A stretch of 52,383 nt of DNA from Bacteroidales bacterium (GTDB lineage: Bacteria; Bacteroidota; Bacteroidia; Bacteroidales; Muribaculaceae): contig JAUNFY010000014.1 in the NCBI GenBank assembly GCA_030524805.1, positions 1 to 52,383 on the forward strand, given 5' to 3'. The number at the start of each line of letters is the position of its first letter. The stretch's first letter is position 1. This document shows positions 977 to 6,974 of this stretch, piece by piece. A program made the translations under genes and the position numbers. A model generated the notes under the pieces. The model was given only the letters and a program-made list of their open reading frames with translations. It was not told the origin of the DNA and made no database searches.

Positions 977-1274
977 AATTTTGATATCAGTAACTGCTGT
1001 TGTTACTTTTACATGCTTTCTATCGGGGTGTGTACGTTTTCATACCGGCAGTGCAGCCGATTATGAGAATTTCACCTGTCATAATAAAAAATTGATGGAT
1101 TTCTATCTTTCAAAAGAGTTTGACAAAAACCTTATAGACAAGAAATTCAAGGCATCTAAAAATGATCAGCAAATTATCAATAACCGTTATGCCACATATT
1201 ATAGATTTCTAAGTATTGTTTCAGGTTTAGTATATGGCGCAAAACGAAACGTTCAATGGCATGTAACACGTTAA
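960..1274 (+). pseudogene. Lipoprotein gene truncated at the left end of the capsid element
   Basis: The chosen ATG gives MKDFVKILISVTAVVTF followed by a lipobox (FLSGC), so the product would be a lipid-anchored exported protein. The following 70 or so residues are charged and match no family I recognise. The native reading ends at LVYG; the last dozen codons are read from the repeat motif at 1241-1253 and the DNA beyond it. The gene therefore looks cut by insertion of the element. Its original 3' part is not obvious: joining to the right flank at 5589 does not restore a long frame. It follows the Rhs scrap, again like an immunity or tip-associated gene. Confidence 0.5.
1241..1253 (-). repeat. 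End-repeat copy 1 (AAAACGAAACGTT)
   Basis: Reverse complement of the 13-mer AACGTTTCGTTTT. With the right-end copy at 5576 it forms an inverted pair, sharing CAAAACGAAACGTTC over 15 bases. It lies inside the reading frame of the truncated lipoprotein and probably marks the left limit of the element. Confidence 0.65.
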
Positions 1275-1700
1275 AGCACTGAAGCGTTGTCGATTGACGG
1301 GCGTTTTATGGGGCTAATTGTCGCGCCGAAAAGTTTACATGGCTTTACATTTGGTTAACATTTGGGCGCAAGAAGTTTACACGCAAGTTATACTAATGTG
1401 CTGATAGGTTTGCATTTGGTTTATATGGAGCTATGAAAAAGGAGTATTTAGGCGTAAAGGTTTGATAGTATCTATGCTTGTGCGTTTCGCGTTATAACTA
1501 TGTTTGAATGGTCTTCGCAGACAATTCAAAATGTAACATTAAAAAATTAACAATTCAAGGGAGATGTAACACGTTTTGACCGTGTTTTTCATAGTTTAAC
1601 AATTAATAACTTGCTTAGAATCAACTATCTGAGTGATTTCTAACGTTTCGTTTTGTGTTAAAATGTAACGTAGGTATTCATATAGGGTTACATTTAACAC
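1261..1700. repeat. Left-end region: repeated ATGTAAC heptamers and an inverted repeat, no gene
   Basis: No coding frame is credible between 1275 and 1714. The stretch holds ATGTAAC at 1261, 1531, 1564 and 1663 and its complement GTTACAT at 1687. The last two are part of an inverted pair, GTGTTAAAATGTAAC (1655-1669) and GTTACATTTAACAC (1687-1700). Related TTTACAT and TTAACATT strings occur between 1332 and 1352. Similar GTTAC-C/T-TTTTT strings occur at the right end (5439, 5540, 5560). They look like binding sites for an element-encoded protein. Confidence 0.5.
1642..1657 (+). repeat. End-repeat copy 2 (AACGTTTCGTTTTGTG)
   Basis: Sixteen bases identical, in the same orientation, to 5576-5591 at the right end. 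It sits about 400 bp inside copy 1. It may be an internal recombinase or transposase site, or the true left attachment site if the element is bounded by direct repeats. Confidence 0.6.
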
Positions 1701-1714
1701 TTACATAGGCCGAT

Positions 1715-2182
1715 TTAACACTTAGCGCGATTGTCCTTTTTCGGAACTGCGGTTAATAGTTCGATGGCCTGTGACACTCGTTGTGTTCGGTCGCTTTTCG
1801 GCTCAAATATAGCTAATGTCTCATGGATTGAGGTTAGGCGTTGTAAGACGTCTTCTATGTCGTATCCATTACTCCGCAACTCCATATAGCACATGAAATA
1901 TTGTTTTATTTCCGGGCGATTCTCAAAACGGTTAATTGTCATTCGAGACACACCGAAAAATGCCGCCAAATCTTTTTTGCGAGTTATACCCATGCGATAA
2001 TAGGCTGTGACATAGTTTTCAATAGTCAACGATAGAAAATTGCCAGGTTCTATTGGTTTGGCCGTACGCTTAGTTTCTGACAAAACCTTTTTGACATACG
2101 GAACGGTAGTGTCAACACTTTGTGCGACCTCATACACATTCAAAAACTCTGATAGGTGGATTATGCGCTCTTTTTTCGTCAT
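1715..2182 (-). CDS. HTH DNA-binding regulator of the element
   Basis: The 155-residue product starts at the ATG at 2182 (MTKKERI). The open frame extends 27 codons further, but that part is unusual and overlaps a GC-rich inverted segment. Two helix-turn-helix-like stretches are visible: residues about 15-36 (NVYEVAQSVDTTVPYVKKVL) and about 68-92 (RKKDLAAFFGVSRMTINRFE). The second resembles the Xre/Cro type. It is transcribed away from the capsid genes with the 89-aa gene, an arrangement typical of phage immunity or early regulators. It is the best candidate to bind the repeats at the element ends or the palindromes at 2787-2821. I do not recognise a named family. Confidence 0.7.
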   Translation of the reverse strand: MTKKERIIHLSEFLNVYEVAQSVDTTVPYVKKVLSETKRTAKPIEPGNFLSLTIENYVTAYYRMGITRKKDLAAFFGVSRMTINRFENRPEIKQYFMCYMELRSNGYDIEDVLQRLTSIHETLAIFEPKSDRTQRVSQAIELLTAVPKKDNRAKC

Positions 2183-2278
2183 TTTTTTCTGGGAGGGGTA
2201 AACATGGCGGCTAATGGTATAAATCCGCCCGGAGGTGAGACGTTGCACCGGGCGGATTTTCAAGATAAGAGATTATCG

Positions 2279-2548
2279 TTATTTGTCGATTACACGGGTT
2301 TTCGCGCCCTTTACGTTGTCCATGCTGTCGAGGGCTTCGATGACTTGTTGCAAGGAGAAGAAAGCTTCTGCCAAATTACCCCCGGCGCAGATGTTTTCAT
2401 TGAATACGGACTGTGCTGCATAGAAGTAGATGATTTGGAGTTGACGGCGCACTTCGCCGGGCGTGTTCTCGCTGACAAGAATAGTCAGCAACTCATCGAA
2501 GTTGTAGCGCGATGCGCGTTGTGCAAGGCTCTCATTCGGATTGTACAT
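2279..2548 (-). CDS. 89-residue protein of unknown function in the element
   Basis: The product starts at the ATG complement at 2546-2548. It is a mostly helical, acidic protein (LAQRASRYNFDELLTILVSE near the front, then a repeated Q/I/F/Y helical pattern) with no signal peptide, cysteine cluster or known catalytic motif. It lies upstream of the HTH gene on the same strand, with about 96 bp between them, so the two are probably co-transcribed. A 17-bp direct repeat lies just upstream, one copy 2 bp from the start codon, which suggests control of this gene by an operator at its start. Frames on the opposite strand (2156-2557) read through the same DNA, but this one has the better start and context. 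Confidence 0.55.
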   Translation of the reverse strand: MYNPNESLAQRASRYNFDELLTILVSENTPGEVRRQLQIIYFYAAQSVFNENICAGGNLAEAFFSLQQVIEALDSMDNVKGAKTRVIDK

Positions 2549-2549
2549 A

Positions 2550-2566
2550 ACATGTAATTTTTAGGA
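2550..2566. repeat. 17-bp direct repeat, copy 1 (ACATGTAATTTTTAGGA)
   Basis: Identical to 2687-2703, 137 bp away. This copy is placed immediately upstream of the start codon of the leftward 89-aa gene, where a bound protein or RNA would interfere with initiation. Confidence 0.7.
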
Positions 2567-2686
2567 AGTTAAATAAAAAGCGACCCTTAGGTGTCCTACG
2601 CTATTACATGTAAAGCGCCGGGGCGTTTCCGCGCTCCGCACCATAGGCCGCAAATATCTTTGGGGATTTTGTTTAAAGTGGTTCAT

Positions 2687-2703
2687 ACATGTAATTTTTA
2701 GGA
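2687..2703. repeat. 17-bp direct repeat, copy 2 (ACATGTAATTTTTAGGA)
   Basis: Second exact copy, in the gap between the leftward and rightward genes. Apart from the two repeats and the palindromes described next, I see nothing coding in 2549-2885. Confidence 0.7.
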
Positions 2704-2786
2704 TACGCAAATTTAATACTTTCTTTTGACATACCAAAATTTCAAGCGCAAAAAATAATGGGTGTAAAAGCATTTCACACAAAAGC

Positions 2787-2859
2787 GTGCAATCAATGCA
2801 CACTTCTATGCAATGGTTGCACACTTTTTTTGAGAGTGGGGTTATAATTGATAACTTTG
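2787..2859 (+). promoter_or_regulatory. Capsid-operon promoter with two upstream palindromes
   Basis: The -33 box TTTG (2829-2832) and -7 box TAACTTTG (2852-2859) are 19 nt apart, a very good Bacteroidetes promoter, with the start codon 27 bp downstream. Directly upstream are the palindromes GTGCA-N5-TGCAC (2787-2801) and TGCAA-N3-TTGCA (2809-2821). Their centres are about 21 bp apart, roughly two helical turns, and each continues into ACACTT, so they are also direct repeats. The position fits an activator site or repressor operator. Confidence 0.7.
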
Positions 2860-2885
2860 CGCCACAACACATTAAACCCGAAAGA

Positions 2886-3965
2886 ATGGCACAAAACACA
2901 TTCATAGTCTCCGATGAGACATTAAACTGCTATGGTTGCATAGTCCTTACCGCCGGAATAAACACGGCGCGGTTCGACCGCAACCCGATAATGTACTACA
3001 TGCACGATCGCGACAAGGGCGTTATAGGCCGATGGGAGAACGTCCGCAAGGATGGATCCAGACTGTTGGCCGATGCTGTCTTTGATGACGGATCCGAGTT
3101 GGGTGCAAAGGTAAAGCACCAAGTTGAAAGCGGCTTTTTACGCACCGCGTCCGTAGGGCTTGAAAACGTAAGGCAAGAGGAAATAAACGGCGTTAAAACG
3201 ATAGTGGAATGCGATTTGTATGAGATTTCAATCGTTGACGTTCCAGCCAATGAGAACGCTGTTAAGCTCTACGCTAAAGGCCGGAAGCCTATAACGCTGC
3301 TGTCTCAACTGTCAACGCCAAAGAATGAAAGCGGCAAGAATTCGCAAACATTGCGCGTCCGACTGATTGACATTTTGGGACTGCCCGAAAATGCCACCGA
3401 CAACAATATACTTTCAACGGTCAAGGAACTGATGAAAGAGCCGTCGGCCGTTGAAAAAGAGGTCGACGAGGCGGTCAAAAATGGATTGGTTTCCGACAAT
3501 GACCGACAAAGTTTCATGGCTATGGCACAAGCCAATATCAAGGCGTTCCGCGCTTACTGCAATGGCCGCAGGGATACGCAAAAGGCTGAGATTGAAACGC
3601 TGCTCAATCAAAATATAAACAAGGTAATTCCGCAGGAGCAAGCCGCGTTCAGGCGAGTGGGTGAGCGCATGGGCGTGGACGTGCTGCGCGGCATACTTGA
3701 AGCGATGCACGGCCCTGTAAAACTCACCCATGTACTCGCGTTGCCGCATGACAGAAGCCAGTGGGGGCTTGATGAATACCGCAAGTTTGCCCCGGAAGAA
3801 CTGCGCGACAACCCCGGACTATACAAGCGGCTTGTGGCAGAATCCGCCGGGCATTCCCCGGCGGTCAGGGATTTGTCCTATTACCGTAAGCATGACCCTG
3901 ATTATCTTGCAACACACCCCGATTTTTACCGACAACTTATTGAAAACGAACAAAAACGCAAATAA
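2886..3965 (+). CDS. HK97-type prohead protease (peptidase S78-like) with C-terminal extension
   Basis: The 359-residue product matures phage procapsids. The ATG at 2886 follows the promoter and starts MAQNTFIVSD. The first 130 residues fit the prohead-protease fold: His40 in MYYMHDRDKG, Ser89 in GFLRTASVGLE, and an acidic residue near 113 in LYEISIVDVPANENAV form a plausible catalytic set. Residues about 130-280 are helical and may act as a scaffold, as in fused protease-scaffold proteins. The last 70 residues contain a duplicated motif (LDEYRKFAPEELRDNPGLYK and LSYYRKHDPDYLATHPDFYR). The major capsid gene follows after 5 bp. Portal and terminase genes, which normally precede a protease, are absent. 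Confidence 0.85.
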   Translation: MAQNTFIVSDETLNCYGCIVLTAGINTARFDRNPIMYYMHDRDKGVIGRWENVRKDGSRLLADAVFDDGSELGAKVKHQVESGFLRTASVGLENVRQEEINGVKTIVECDLYEISIVDVPANENAVKLYAKGRKPITLLSQLSTPKNESGKNSQTLRVRLIDILGLPENATDNNILSTVKELMKEPSAVEKEVDEAVKNGLVSDNDRQSFMAMAQANIKAFRAYCNGRRDTQKAEIETLLNQNINKVIPQEQAAFRRVGERMGVDVLRGILEAMHGPVKLTHVLALPHDRSQWGLDEYRKFAPEELRDNPGLYKRLVAESAGHSPAVRDLSYYRKHDPDYLATHPDFYRQLIENEQKRK

Positions 3966-3970
3966 CAACT

Positions 3971-4843
3971 ATGGCACTGAACAAAGAAGTATGGTTAAAC
4001 CAAATACGCGAGGGATTCTACCCCGATGACAGCTTTTTGCAGAAGCTTACCAACTATGACGCATTTGTCGAAAACGACAAAATACACATTGCGTCCGCAG
4101 GCATTGACCCCAAAGTGTTGATCAACAACACCACATATCCCATTGCGGTAGTCGGGCGCGATGATGAGGATTGCGAAATCGAACTTGATAAGTTCGAGAC
4201 TGAAAACACAATCGTGCGCCGCCCGGATGCGATTGAATACAGCTACGACAAACTTGAAAGCGTTATCCGTCAACACCGAAGCACGTTGCGCAAGGCCGTG
4301 ACCATGAAAGCGACACACGCAATCGCGCCGCAGGCCGACACGTTCGACACGCCGCTTGTAACAACTTCGGGCGCAAATGCAAATGGCCGACTACGCCTAA
4401 CATTCGCCGATATTCTCGCGCTCAAGGAGCGTTTCGATGATGCCGACATACCGCAAGACCGCCGTTATCTGGTGTTGCACCCGAAACACGTATCAGACCT
4501 ACTGCTTGAGGATATGAAACTGTTTAAAGACCTCACCAACATTGTCAGTGGCGAACCGCTCAAATTTGCTGGATTCGGTTGCTTCTCATGTTCCACGATG
4601 CCGACATATACGACCGATGGCGGTGCGTTGTCAAAAGTGGCGTATGGGGAAGATCCGACAACCGCTTTTGCGAGTGTGGCATTCTATGCTGATGAGGTGT
4701 TCAAGGCCGATGGCGAAATCTACATGTACGCAACCTATGATGACCCCAAGGAACGCGCCACAATCGTGGGCTTTGACAAGCGTTCTATCGTGCTGCCCAT
4801 CCGTGGCAAAGGTATAGGCTCAATCGTCAGCAAGAACGCCTAA
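3971..4843 (+). CDS. Phage major capsid protein (HK97-fold type)
   Basis: The 290-residue product lies 5 bp after the protease, the standard protease-capsid order. The sequence has features of capsid proteins in Bacteroidales phages: an N-terminal arm, a long central domain with YLVLHPKHVSDLLLEDMKLF (A-domain-like), and a C-terminal beta-rich part ending FDKRSIVLPIRGKGIGSIV. No signal peptide or membrane segment is present. The frame is intact and GC content is close to the chromosome average, higher than in the flanking island genes. Assignment rests on position and overall character; a structure prediction would settle the fold. Confidence 0.75.
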   Translation: MALNKEVWLNQIREGFYPDDSFLQKLTNYDAFVENDKIHIASAGIDPKVLINNTTYPIAVVGRDDEDCEIELDKFETENTIVRRPDAIEYSYDKLESVIRQHRSTLRKAVTMKATHAIAPQADTFDTPLVTTSGANANGRLRLTFADILALKERFDDADIPQDRRYLVLHPKHVSDLLLEDMKLFKDLTNIVSGEPLKFAGFGCFSCSTMPTYTTDGGALSKVAYGEDPTTAFASVAFYADEVFKADGEIYMYATYDDPKERATIVGFDKRSIVLPIRGKGIGSIVSKNA

Positions 4844-4854
4844 AAAACGCACCT

Positions 4855-5052
4855 ATGGCTAAACACAAGATAAAGGCATATTCGTATTCCCGGCGCGTTG
4901 AGGAAGTGAACGCGATATATGACTATTACGCCCGGCAAGGGATGAGCAACCGCGAGATATGGCGGCAGTACATCTATCCGCGCTTTGCCATTGCCGAACG
5001 TACATATTACAACTACCTCAAAAAAAGTGGTTGTACAATTAAAAATAATTGA
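4855..5052 (+). CDS. 65-residue basic protein with HTH-like segment
   Basis: The product starts 11 bp after the capsid gene and is rich in Lys, Arg and Tyr. Residues 28-58 (QGMSNREIWRQYIYPRFAIA then ERTYYNYLKK) look like a helix-turn-helix in which the second helix reads ERTYYNYL. It could be a DNA-binding accessory of the element or a small capsid-associated protein. Its last codons overlap the upstream box of the ncRNA promoter, which ties the two units together. No named family recognised. Confidence 0.7.
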   Translation: MAKHKIKAYSYSRRVEEVNAIYDYYARQGMSNREIWRQYIYPRFAIAERTYYNYLKKSGCTIKNN

Positions 5053-5061
5053 TTAACTTTG
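5031..5061 (+). promoter_or_regulatory. Promoter for the element ncRNA
   Basis: TTG (5031-5033) and TAACTTTG (5054-5061) are separated by 20 nt, matching the promoter pattern used across this window. The upstream box lies in the end of the 65-aa gene and within the palindrome TTGTACAA. Initiation is expected near 5068. Confidence 0.65.
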
Positions 5062-5067
5062 CATCGT

Positions 5068-5293
5068 AAGACCTCCGAAAAGGCGCGATAACTTCAAGCC
5101 GTGAGGCGTGCGCTGGGAATGGTTACTTGGCGTAACAAGCCTAACTGCCGCCCGGCGTATTATTTGACAAATACCATTGCATTCCAAGTGGGTTTAGAAC
5201 AATGTCGGTGCAATGTCTCAAAACGATTCCGTAGCTAATGACTACCGATTCGTAGTCCACGGAGGCTGGCCGATTTGGTCAGCCTCCGTTTTT
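5068..5293 (+). ncRNA. Predicted structured non-coding RNA of the element, about 225 nt
   Basis: No ORF fills this interval, yet it has a promoter upstream and a very strong terminator at its end. Helices visible by eye are GTTAC/GTAAC (5122-5126 with 5132-5136), GGAATG/CATTCC (5116-5121 with 5180-5185), and the terminator stem. An alternative pairing, AATGGT/ACCATT (5118-5123 with 5173-5178), competes with the second helix. I do not recognise an Rfam class. In phages and satellites such RNAs can regulate helper functions or assist packaging, but nothing here shows which. Confidence 0.6.
5259..5293 (+). terminator. Strong rho-independent terminator of the ncRNA
   Basis: ACGGAGGCTGGCC (5259-5271) pairs with GGTCAGCCTCCGT (5277-5289), with one G-T pair and a GATTT loop. 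A run of T follows to 5293. Confidence 0.9.
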
Positions 5294-5385
5294 ATAGCTT
5301 AGCTCCAAATGAAAATTGGTCAAAAAGTCGTATTTTTAATATTTGGAGCAGTGTAAGAATGACCGTTCGAACGTGATTTTAACAT

Positions 5386-5398
5386 AACGTTTCGTTTT
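5386..5398 (+). repeat. End-repeat copy 3 (AACGTTTCGTTTT)
   Basis: Same orientation as the terminal copy at 5576 and 190 bp inside it. The stretch 5294-5535 holds this repeat and an AT-rich sequence without a credible gene. Confidence 0.65.
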
Positions 5399-5539
5399 AT
5401 TTAACATTTCCAAAATTTGTAACTCATTGATAGTCAGAGTTACTTTTTTTACTGATACCGTTTTGTTCACTTGGAACGTGACATCTTGAAATTAGTATGT
5501 ATTGCGTTGATAATTTGCAACTTAAATAACTGTATTGGT

Positions 5540-5570
5540 GTTACCTTTTTGACTTAGTGAAAAAGGTAAC
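5540..5570. terminator. Perfect 11-bp hairpin at the right end of the element
   Basis: GTTACCTTTTT (5540-5550) and AAAAAGGTAAC (5560-5570) are exact complements with a 9-nt loop. The hairpin lies just inside the terminal repeat and overlaps the GTG start of the next gene. It may block readthrough out of the element, or be a protein-binding palindrome. Confidence 0.5.
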
Positions 5571-6363
5571 TTTCGAACGTTTCGTTTTGTGGATTATATT
5601 AGAATCACCATTTAACTATGAGCCTAAATATATTCTCAATGGTTCTTACGAGCTATCTCACGATTACCGGAATATAAAGCTTATTAATTGGTATGAAAAC
5701 AATATCGACTCTATCAGTTGCGAATTGTTTAATGAATATTATCAGATAGAAACCGGTTTTATAAATGTTCCATGTATCACTGAGTTAGACGATCTTGAGA
5801 AACAAATAGAAAGTTATGGCGACTCCATCTTTGGAAGATTACGCGATTTCAAGATCAAGCATTCCCCTTTGATCTGTATCGGAGACACCTCTGTTTTACG
5901 AGAAGGACATTTTAGTAAAGATACAATAAGATTAAAAGAGATTGAACTTGTAGACAACAATATCCTCAACAAACTCTTAGACAGTGTCATGATATCGGAT
6001 AGAAGGAATCCTCACAAGAGGAGTTTATATTCAGCGGATATCAGAAGTTGCAATAACCGGCAATTAGTGAGAATTGTAGAATATGGTGAAGTGAAGCAAG
6101 CGTTGCTATATTCAGAAAATGGATATTATGGCTACATTTTGGTTAGAGACATACCTGTGGTTATTTCCTTAGATAAATCTATCAAATACAGTTGCCTCAA
6201 TCAAGGTAAGAGTAGGTCTTTCGAAATATTATCTAAGGAGTATCCTTTTTCAGAATGTCTCAATAGCAAACATTGGTTTATCATGTCAGACACTGATTTC
6301 ACCAAGATTGATGCGCAAACGGGTATAGACACCTGGAATGATATTATTTTACAATCTGAATAA
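5557..6363 (+). CDS. Family A member 2, larger protein with a front end taken from the element
   Basis: The longest frame begins at a GTG at 5557, and its first 11 or so codons are read from the element's terminal repeat, so the native start and any signal peptide are probably lost. The C-terminal 130 residues align by eye with members at 307 and 6444: SLYSADIRSCNNRQLVRIVE, a GYYGYILV strand, VVISLDKSIKY, then HWFIMSD and TGIDTW. The N-terminal 130 residues have no counterpart in the others. Function is unknown; an immunity role is possible. Whether it is still expressed is unclear, because the hairpin at 5540-5570 covers the start. Treat the first codons as provisional. Confidence 0.5.
   Translation: MKKVTFERFVLWIILESPFNYEPKYILNGSYELSHDYRNIKLINWYENNIDSISCELFNEYYQIETGFINVPCITELDDLEKQIESYGDSIFGRLRDFKIKHSPLICIGDTSVLREGHFSKDTIRLKEIELVDNNILNKLLDSVMISDRRNPHKRSLYSADIRSCNNRQLVRIVEYGEVKQALLYSENGYYGYILVRDIPVVISLDKSIKYSCLNQGKSRSFEILSKEYPFSECLNSKHWFIMSDTDFTKIDAQTGIDTWNDIILQSE
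5576..5591 (+). repeat. End-repeat copy 4 (AACGTTTCGTTTTGTG)
   Basis: The rightmost full copy and probable right limit of the element. It is an inverted partner of copy 1 and a 16-base direct partner of copy 2. Confidence 0.65.
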
Positions 6364-6443: not shown

Positions 6444-6974
6444 ATGATAATTATGATAAATTTGTTAGTAACTGCATTGATGTGCCTCTTGTCGTCACTG
6501 GCAACTATTCCTGATGAACCGGTCATGACAAGCTTTGAGATAGTTCCCCTGACGTTACCTCAGGTAGACTTATCAAGAAACCCCATTACCTATAAACTCG
6601 TAAACAAAATAATCGAAAACAGGGATTCCACGGAAACAATAGGATACTATGCACTCGATATCAAAAATTATAGAAACGGATATTTAGTACGAATAACTCA
6701 ACATTCGGACTCCCGGCTATTTTATTATAAGGGTTATGACGGATATTTTGTAAAGGATAATGTTCCTGTTATTATAGATGTTACAGGATCATTTAAACTG
6801 TATTATCACAGGCCTAAAACATTCAGGGAATTCAAAATGAAGGGAGAATTTTTTCCACCGACAGTATATGACCCTAAAGAATGGTGGTTTTATATATCCA
6901 ATGGTAAATACAAGGAACTTGACGACTGGACAGGTATGGAGATGTGGAACGGTATTTATAAAGGAAAGATGTAA
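6444..6974 (+). CDS. Small exported protein, family A member 3
   Basis: The 176-residue product begins with a signal peptide (MIIMINLLVTALMCLLSSLA). A start at the third codon-pair downstream, 6453, is equally possible. It is the most complete member of the local family: YYALDIKNYRNGYLVRITQH, GYDGYFVKDNVPVIID, a KTFREF segment, and YDPKEWWFYISNGK followed by WTGMEMWNG. No catalytic residues are evident, and the alternating aromatic and hydrophobic pattern suggests a small beta-sheet domain. It lies 80 bp after member 2 on the same strand. Tandem divergent copies of an exported domain suggest repeated acquisition or duplication, as in immunity-gene arrays. Function unknown. Confidence 0.6.
   Translation: MIIMINLLVTALMCLLSSLATIPDEPVMTSFEIVPLTLPQVDLSRNPITYKLVNKIIENRDSTETIGYYALDIKNYRNGYLVRITQHSDSRLFYYKGYDGYFVKDNVPVIIDVTGSFKLYYHRPKTFREFKMKGEFFPPTVYDPKEWWFYISNGKYKELDDWTGMEMWNGIYKGKM

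Follow-up and report, generated by a model that had tools for sequence, protein, structure and literature searches.

The stretch of DNA analysed here (the window) comprises positions 1 to 52,383 of contig JAUNFY010000014.1 from a Bacteroidales bacterium of the family Muribaculaceae. Within it lies a 4,368-bp element (1231-5598), bracketed by the 4-bp target-site duplication (TSD) TTAG, that is very likely a non-autonomous, transposable, capsid-encoding phage satellite of Mu-like Bacteroidales phages. The initial annotation had proposed a capsid-encoding satellite mobilised by a Mu-like helper, a proposal now supported by a family of related insertions, by their TSDs, and by ends shared with complete phages. 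The parts of this interpretation differ in strength: that the small form is mobile and that its genes are kept for a function are both nearly certain, that the satellites are moved by the transposase of a Mu-like phage is highly probable, and that the satellite uses its own capsid to spread is fairly probable.

The termini were placed 10 bp outside an AAAACG motif, starting from the inverted end repeats, with the left end reading TATATGGCGC-AAAACG at 1231 and the right end reading CGTTTT-GTGGATTATA and finishing at 5598. The element itself had been recognised in the initial annotation, with limits (1241..5588) that fall 10 bp short on each side, and the repeat of 13-16 bp reported there for both ends corresponds to the motif AACGTTTCGTTTT, present in four exact copies (1241-, 1642+, 5386+, 5576+). 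When up to two mismatches are allowed, six matches are found in 52 kb, above the 1.65 +/- 1.18 expected from shuffled sequence, and none of 100 shuffles reaches six. The spacing between the outer and second left motifs, 401 bp in the window, is 399 bp in the related locus L003 and 391 bp in L008. Removal in silico of the element and one TTAG fuses the host frames into an open reading frame (ORF) of 362 codons. This restored frame is the sole empty-site evidence for the window, because a search for an uninterrupted allele of the host gene among 100 other genomes of the genus found none, only partial matches of 30-34% identity in two of them. The interrupted gene (window 5557-6363) is 27% identical to its neighbour at 6444-6974, and the two apparently belong to a small family of uncharacterised proteins.

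A family of small elements at many sites

The layout of a protease gene followed by a capsid gene recurs at 13 distinct Bacteroidales insertions (window, L003-L008, L057-L059, L142, L144 and L145), all with both sides present, after merging of redundant loci (L055 and L026 with L003; L056, L027, L013, L078 and L217 with L008; L143 with L007) and with the partial copy L014, from a viral contig, counted apart. Capsid identity to the window is 61-83% for L003-L008 and 68-74% for L142, L144 and L145; L057-L059 and L014 are further capsid relatives. L003 and L008 reside in genomes G305 and G159, both placed in the genus of the window genome. Capsids at satellite-level score were found in 6 of 397 genomes of the family, the window's own included, and in 4 of 392 other genomes sampled from the order, with the sister locus L146 in a fifth; none turned up in the 246 further genomes sampled from the class, which gave two weaker matches. 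Scans of viral contigs returned only L014 and a copy of L008 at satellite-level identity among the matches listed (80 of 269 in one scan). Relatives in phage records are 26-39% identical among the matches listed (20 of 30), and those in two plasmid records are 35-37% identical.

The 12 satellites with defined ends measure 4,180 +/- 244 bp (range 3,727-4,713), and their largest ORF besides those for protease and capsid encodes 182 aa. A protease with a scaffold-like domain accompanies the capsid gene in 13/13. L059, the longest satellite at 4,713 bp, has an added virion morphogenesis gene (L059:10796-11287), with a Phage_tail_S match below cut-off and a match to PHROG 26, tail completion or neck.

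A 4-bp TSD is present in 12 of the 13 satellites, and no duplication is longer than 4 bp. The offset rule used to place ends was derived from the window, L003 and one complete prophage (copy A, below), and the overall count of 14 TSDs in 14 elements is therefore partly circular; the ends of L057, L142, L144, L145 and L146 were, moreover, picked with the TSD in view. For six loci (L004, L005, L006, L008, L058 and L059), TSDs were predicted from the 10-bp offset fixed beforehand, each locus offering between 2 and 6 candidate pairs of ends, and all six were found; with the ends shifted as a control, the mean was 0.02 and no more than 2/6 matched. A 5-bp TSD, the first guess, was dropped, as no 5-bp repeat is seen in any of the 14 elements.

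Eight loci were tested by removal of the element, which restored a spanning host ORF at three (window, L003 and L004); at the other five no such ORF was listed, the left flank of L006 being only 59 bp. The gene targeted at L003 is uninterrupted in G269, a genome of another species, with 91% identity over 148/148 residues across the joint. The two main blocks shared by L144 and L145 show 97.4% and 95.8% identity, while the TSDs differ and the 2-kb flanks do not match each other; between L058 and L059 identity is 80-97% depending on the block, again with flanks that do not match (the right flank of L058 being only 597 bp). The near-identity of L144 and L145 at unrelated sites indicates that the small form itself moved, rather than being remade by deletion each time. 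Thus the search suggested in the initial annotation, for the same gene set at different sites with an empty allele, yielded unrelated flanks in two pairs and, for the gene targeted at L003, an allele without the insertion.

Within 6 kb of the capsid gene at the 13 insertions there is no terminase match; the flank scanned was ample on both sides at ten of them, and at the window, L006 and L058 it was less than 5 kb upstream or less than 3.5 kb downstream, the ends and flanks of these three being seen nonetheless. Among phages in the capsid tree, a terminase match lies beside the capsid gene in 23 of 24 rows, the remaining one, L015, being fragmentary. The gene set is thus not confined to full prophages; confinement to them is what the initial annotation had said would count against a satellite. 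Seven low-scoring loci (L157, L011, L023, L024, L098, L101 and L119; capsid <95 bits) also have no terminase match despite sufficient flank, and at L157 tail-type genes, read by eye, adjoin the capsid gene. When 38 capsid proteins are placed in a tree, those of the 13 satellites fall on one side of a branch (support 99/96), with 24 phages outside and L146 as sister (83/90); the tree is midpoint-rooted, long phage branches meet in it, and clade here means one side of a branch. Ratios of non-synonymous to synonymous substitution rates (dN/dS) are 0.04-0.10 for the capsid gene in four close pairs (two more are saturated) and 0.12-0.37 for the protease gene in five pairs (one more is saturated), low values that place both genes under purifying selection.

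These observations bear on the possibility that the window holds a Mu-like prophage that suffered a large internal deletion and is decaying in place. Such a deletion would also leave ends and TSD intact, and an apparent solitary remnant of a phage end does exist (L199). The same small form nevertheless recurs across several genera and families, at 13 insertions in all; near-identical copies occupy unrelated sites, the capsid clade is not seen beside a terminase match, and its genes are under purifying selection. Furthermore, a gene for an antisense RNA of the c4-2 family is present in 12 of the 13 satellites (L007 is the exception) and in L014, unlike L146 and the eight phage sources scanned, five of them only partial, where none was found. 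The deletion account, which the initial annotation had also disfavoured, is accordingly rejected as scarcely credible, and a mobile satellite is preferred.

The sister locus L146 (L146:2722-10955) is an 8,234-bp element with the TSD AATG. It encodes MuA (PF09299), a MuB-like AAA ATPase, a protein with a weak baseplate-V-like match, a Clp-type protease, a capsid protein, and a 91-aa protein that is membrane-bound in appearance, and it has no terminase match. L146 may be a self-transposing intermediate or sister that shows how the satellites arose.

Termini of Mu-like phages and the search for a helper

The complete phages with which the satellites share ends are exemplified in genome G130, where six near-identical capsid genes all lie beside terminases. 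The idea that these are multicopy satellites was ruled out by the adjoining terminases, which mark them as prophages. Copy A was delimited as a prophage of 37,045 bp with the TSD GATG and a transposase matching PHROG 310 (E 3e-44), and genes for a MuB-like ATPase and for further virion functions were recognised by eye; it starts with TATGGGCATG-AAAACGAAGCG and ends with CGTTTCGTTTT-GGCGATTATA. The six near-identical Mu-like prophage copies (L060-L065) are spread over a 5-contig genome, and a 4-bp repeat, AGAG, is common to the left flank of one copy and the right flank of another, which suggests rearrangement or misassembly between copies.

An end signature, TCGTTTTGNNGATTATA, was found at 58 places in 50 of the 397 family genomes, compared with 4 for a reversed control pattern. 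In five satellites (G000, G305, G159, G032 and G190) the signature and the capsid gene are 0.5-1 kb apart. For 17 places, spread over 13 genomes, that share a contig with a phage-type capsid gene, the distance is 14-24 kb; the remaining places have no capsid match nearby or are unassigned. Among 30 places that were opened, L171, L173 and L183 have no upstream motif and may be chance occurrences. Termini of the TATGGG/TATAATC type are found in most satellites, in copy A, and in Porphyromonas phage014a, whose deposited ends read TATGGGGCAAG-AAACG and TATAATCGGC-AAAACG; for Porphyromonas phages, conserved termini and 4-bp bounding repeats are described in the accessible part of PMC10367356. L144 and L145 keep TAT...ATA ends that are otherwise divergent.

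Particular satellites match particular phages more closely. For instance, L008 is identical at 26/26 terminal bases to a prophage end in G090, which is adjoined by tail-type genes read by eye; the ends of L057-L059 resemble those of the G130 type; and the termini of L005, TAAGGGGGG/TAAATCCG, are those of hankyphage p00, whose Clp-type protease is also the type found in L004 and L005. Judged from sequence, this matching of end types looks like helper-specific adaptation. The initial annotation had called for a Mu-like helper with the same end motif: full prophages with the same ends do exist, and the window's exact helper was not among them.

Several findings weigh against a helper-dependent satellite. 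A second capsid match is absent from 8 of 10 satellite-bearing genomes, a set from which those of L004-L006 were left out; G245 contains two 43-residue capsid scraps, and only G778 carries phage-type capsid genes, two in number. MuA-family matches, some of them weak, occur in 6 of 11 genomes, that of L146 included, and in 6 of 14 control genomes too. The right end closest to that of the window, in G199, sits at a contig edge with no capsid match. L007 (= L143) has no TSD and no matching ends by two methods. Finally, the uniform length of the satellites would fit a packing limit, an argument that is weak, as the lengths may be inherited. The window genome, a 2.9-Mb draft that is 95.5% complete, has no match to the PHROG 310 transposase (E <= 0.001) and no second capsid match, and the window copy now seems to be without a resident helper.

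Genes and probable RNA control of the window element

The five ORFs that the initial annotation had listed are all present and open (Table 1), and none matches a transposase, integrase, portal, terminase or tail family above cut-off, in agreement with the absences noted there. The proteins it had named as prohead protease and major capsid protein are borne out by matches to Peptidase_S78 and PHROG 267 and by an HK97-fold model. The protease matches Peptidase_S78 above cut-off, Mu-like_Pro below cut-off, and other phage head proteases, and His40, Ser89, Glu113 and Asp118 are invariant across an alignment of six S78-type sequences. The capsid protein matches the major head protein family PHROG 267 (E 9e-17), and its AlphaFold2 model (pLDDT 83.6) has the HK97 fold by structure comparison.

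In that comparison encapsulins rank as high as phage capsids, so fold does not separate the two. The equal ranking leaves room for a domesticated, encapsulin-like nanocompartment gene pair riding on a Mu-like transposon, and several features make this highly improbable: the sequence family is that of a phage head protein, a maturation protease with invariant His and Ser lies alongside, phage capsids are what lies closest to it beyond its own clade, and there is no constant cargo gene. The proposal of a phage satellite with a working head module is preferred.

Table 1. Features of the element and its insertion site (window coordinates)
Feature	Position	Strand	Remarks
Target-site duplication TTAG, left copy	1227..1230		Excision joins the flanks into a host ORF
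Element	1231..5598		Termini TATATGGCGC-AAAACGAAACG ... CGTTTCGTTTT-GTGGATTATA; similar termini in relatives and full phages
13-bp end motif, outer left	1241..1253	-	Presumed transposase-binding site, from position and like sites in Mu-like prophage
End motif, second left-end copy	1642..1654	+	Motif scan
Helix-turn-helix (HTH) regulator	1715..2263	-	182 codons from TTG; homologues in L003, L014
89-aa protein	2279..2548	-	Apparently c4-2-controlled; slot varies between elements
c4-2 antisense RNA	2576..2653	-	Rfam RF02944, 56.3 bits vs gathering threshold 41
Two direct repeats TGCAAT-N4-GCACACTT (2788, 2809), possible operators	2788..2859	+	Upstream of capsid operon
Prohead protease, 359 aa	2886..3965	+	C-terminal scaffold-like domain
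Major capsid protein, 290 aa	3971..4843	+	HK97 fold
Small HTH protein, 65 aa	4855..5052	+	Like small proteins 3' of the capsid gene in most relatives
Structured 3' transcript region, possible non-coding RNA	about 5070..5298	+	Strong terminator hairpin at end
End motif, inner right	5386..5398	+	190 bp from outer copy, same spacing in L003
End motif, outer right	5576..5588	+	Followed by the GTGGATTATA terminus
Target-site duplication TTAG, right copy	5599..5602		

For the regulator gene, a start at an ATG at about 2182 would suit the L003 homologue more than the TTG does. Its matches below cut-off, to a PHROG named excisionase (E 0.081) and to resolvase and transposase HTH Pfams (E 0.025-0.034), concern the HTH only, and the corresponding slot holds HTH-type proteins in L008, L057-L059 and L142 too. 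The 89-aa protein matched no family in PHROG/Pfam-type profile searches. The sequence TAACTTTG at 2852, read by eye, we take to be a Bacteroidales-type promoter of the capsid operon; the promoters claimed in the initial annotation were likewise judged by eye.

The c4-2 RNA, which the initial annotation had not named, is predicted to pair with the start region of the gene that follows it, a prediction supported by covariation. In the window, the loop ACATGTAAT is complementary to ATTACATGT, immediately upstream of where the 89-aa gene starts, in a 9-nt match. A near-invariant box, TTCCTAAA, precedes the loop (with variants in L006, L008 and L014), and the loop covaries with the bases before the next ATG, as in TAACATGAGTA with TACTCATGTTA (L003) and TGATTTATAA with TTATAAATCA (L005). 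An exact complement of 6-11 nt is found at the expected place in 12 of the 13 c4-2 copies (12 satellites and L014), and the background fraction is 0.05 or less in 11 of the 13; L144 fails, with 5 nt at another position, and the match in L006 is weak at 6 nt, for a background of 0.26. This test was devised after the pairings had been seen and is partly post hoc. Duplex energy does not rise above background in the window or in L059 (fraction of windows as strong 0.62 and 0.68, respectively), and does so mildly in L003 (0.29) and L057 (0.17). The protein encoded after c4-2 differs from element to element, and this position would be an inducer or antirepressor slot.

A 17-nt box on the minus strand, TCCTAAAAATTACATGT, that c4-2 could pair with flanks the RNA gene (window 2550-2566 and 2687-2703); each copy precedes a start codon, the upstream one opening a short frame through c4-2. 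The non-coding RNA that the initial annotation had placed in the element corresponds to the structured 3' region with its terminator hairpin, whose folding z-score is -4.2, with 0/200 shuffles as stable. This region matches no Rfam family at gathering score, the McaS match being weak at 33.7 bits, below the gathering score of 42.

The other satellites vary on this plan. The protease is Clp-type in L004 and L005 and S78-type in L003 and L006-L008, unrelated domains being joined to a similar C-terminal scaffold-like domain, and this difference beside closely related capsids is an apparent domain swap. In L006 (L006:60-3996), the left-type and right-type termini have changed places with respect to the direction of the genes, and its gene block seems to have been inverted between the ends. 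In two Mu-like prophages, a tRNA gene lies between the terminase and protease genes (L060:8316-8388, L066:11600-11671), and L006 has a tRNA gene before the protease gene (L006:446-517), 82% identical over 78 nt to the G130 phage, possibly a relic of the module's origin.

Mode of spread and relation to known satellites

Transposition in trans is strongly supported by the anatomy of the elements, and the helper enzyme itself would be the catalyst. Because phage-type ends are found on the satellite, MuA and MuB of a helper could copy it in trans; when a helper is induced or infects, its MuA/MuB would transpose and replicate the satellite, each insertion generating a 4-bp target duplication. The element carries capsid and protease genes and therefore probably builds its own head, in which the protease, with its fused scaffold-like domain, and the HK97-fold capsid protein would form the satellite's own procapsid. 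Having no portal, terminase or tail genes, it must obtain these from the helper, whose portal and terminase would pack satellite DNA into these capsids from the left end and whose tails would finish the particle. For hankyphage, the accessible part of PMC12135933 describes replication by transposition and headful packing that begins at the left end and takes in about 2 kb of host DNA on the right. Repression by c4-2 of translation of the adjacent small gene would provide an immunity-type control.

One alternative keeps the transposon and changes the role of the capsid, which would serve mainly for interference with the helper, mixed or mis-sized capsids poisoning assembly and so protecting the host or favouring the satellite, with satellite DNA travelling in helper-type heads. 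Known satellites do remodel helper capsids, according to the sections available of PMC10945586 and PMC12409344, and the window capsid is homologous to full-phage capsids, at 24-46% identity. The constant presence of a protease with a scaffold-like domain beside the capsid gene is, however, beyond what capsid-only interference needs, and the Clp-type protease of L004 and L005, accompanied in L005 by hankyphage-type termini, is as expected if the protease acts in assembly. Interference as the main role is thus improbable, and use of the capsid for the satellite's own particles is preferred.

The full phages most useful for comparison, hankyphage p00 (BK010646) and Porphyromonas phage014a (BK068095), have similar termini, and their protease and capsid genes are homologous to those of the satellites and identically ordered; they are 33-43 kb long and carry MuA, MuB, terminase, portal and tail genes, whereas the satellites, at 3.7-4.7 kb, are without MuA, MuB, terminase and portal. 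The window element lacks the MuA, terminase, portal and tail genes by which a Mu-like phage or intact prophage is recognised, and has what marks a phage satellite: an incomplete virion set, protease and capsid genes of its own, and relatives at 13 insertions across hosts. Like the cfPICI, it encodes its own capsid, and unlike cfPICI, PICI, P4-like satellites and PICMI it has no integrase, the family instead showing transposition, with TSDs that differ and, for the two pairs compared, flanks that are unrelated. PICMI are likewise minimal, and PICMI115 (6,110 bp) is called the smallest satellite with characterised activity in the text available on it; by the same text PICMI115 encodes an integrase as well as a putative primase, and a gene for capsid remodelling is absent from PICMIs, whereas the present elements, at about 4.2 kb, carry capsid and protease genes. 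Miniature inverted-repeat transposable elements (MITEs) and other non-autonomous transposons, as far as the sources seen describe them, share the terminal inverted repeats, the TSD, the want of a transposase and movement in trans, but MITEs have no protein genes, and the satellites carry a conserved phage head operon with RNA control, with five ORFs in the window element. The c4-2 RNA resembles the C4 RNA of phage P1 in lying upstream of a small gene and pairing near its start, and differs in its Rfam family and in the 89-aa gene, which matches no family; in P1, C4 RNA is required for full ant repression, as stated in the part available of PMC8198154.

Site-specific integration by satellite integrases is said, in the accessible text of PMC10803314, to be common to all known satellites, and the families reviewed in the available sections of PMC11389934 include no transposable one. 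No transposable phage satellite was found in the open-licence literature searched, part of it seen in excerpt, and absence there is no proof; two papers in it, PMC11874982 and PMC12324425, mention both phage satellites and Bacteroidota. The satellite family is apparently undescribed. On balance, these elements would form a new class of satellites, without integrase, replication or packaging genes, that relies on a helper's transposase and makes small capsids of its own to suit a genome of about 4.2 kb; they would perhaps be the smallest satellites of tailed phages.

If the helper's transposase is indeed borrowed, the rule of site-specific satellite integrases would be broken, and the range of parasitised phages would widen to transposable ones, in an order that is dominant in the gut and for which the open-licence literature searched describes few satellites. 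As a minimal system found in nature, the satellites lend themselves to several questions: how small the gene set of a capsid parasite can be, whether a capsid of the HK97 fold can be made to a size that suits about 4 kb, and in what way end specificity and the capsid module co-evolve with the helper.

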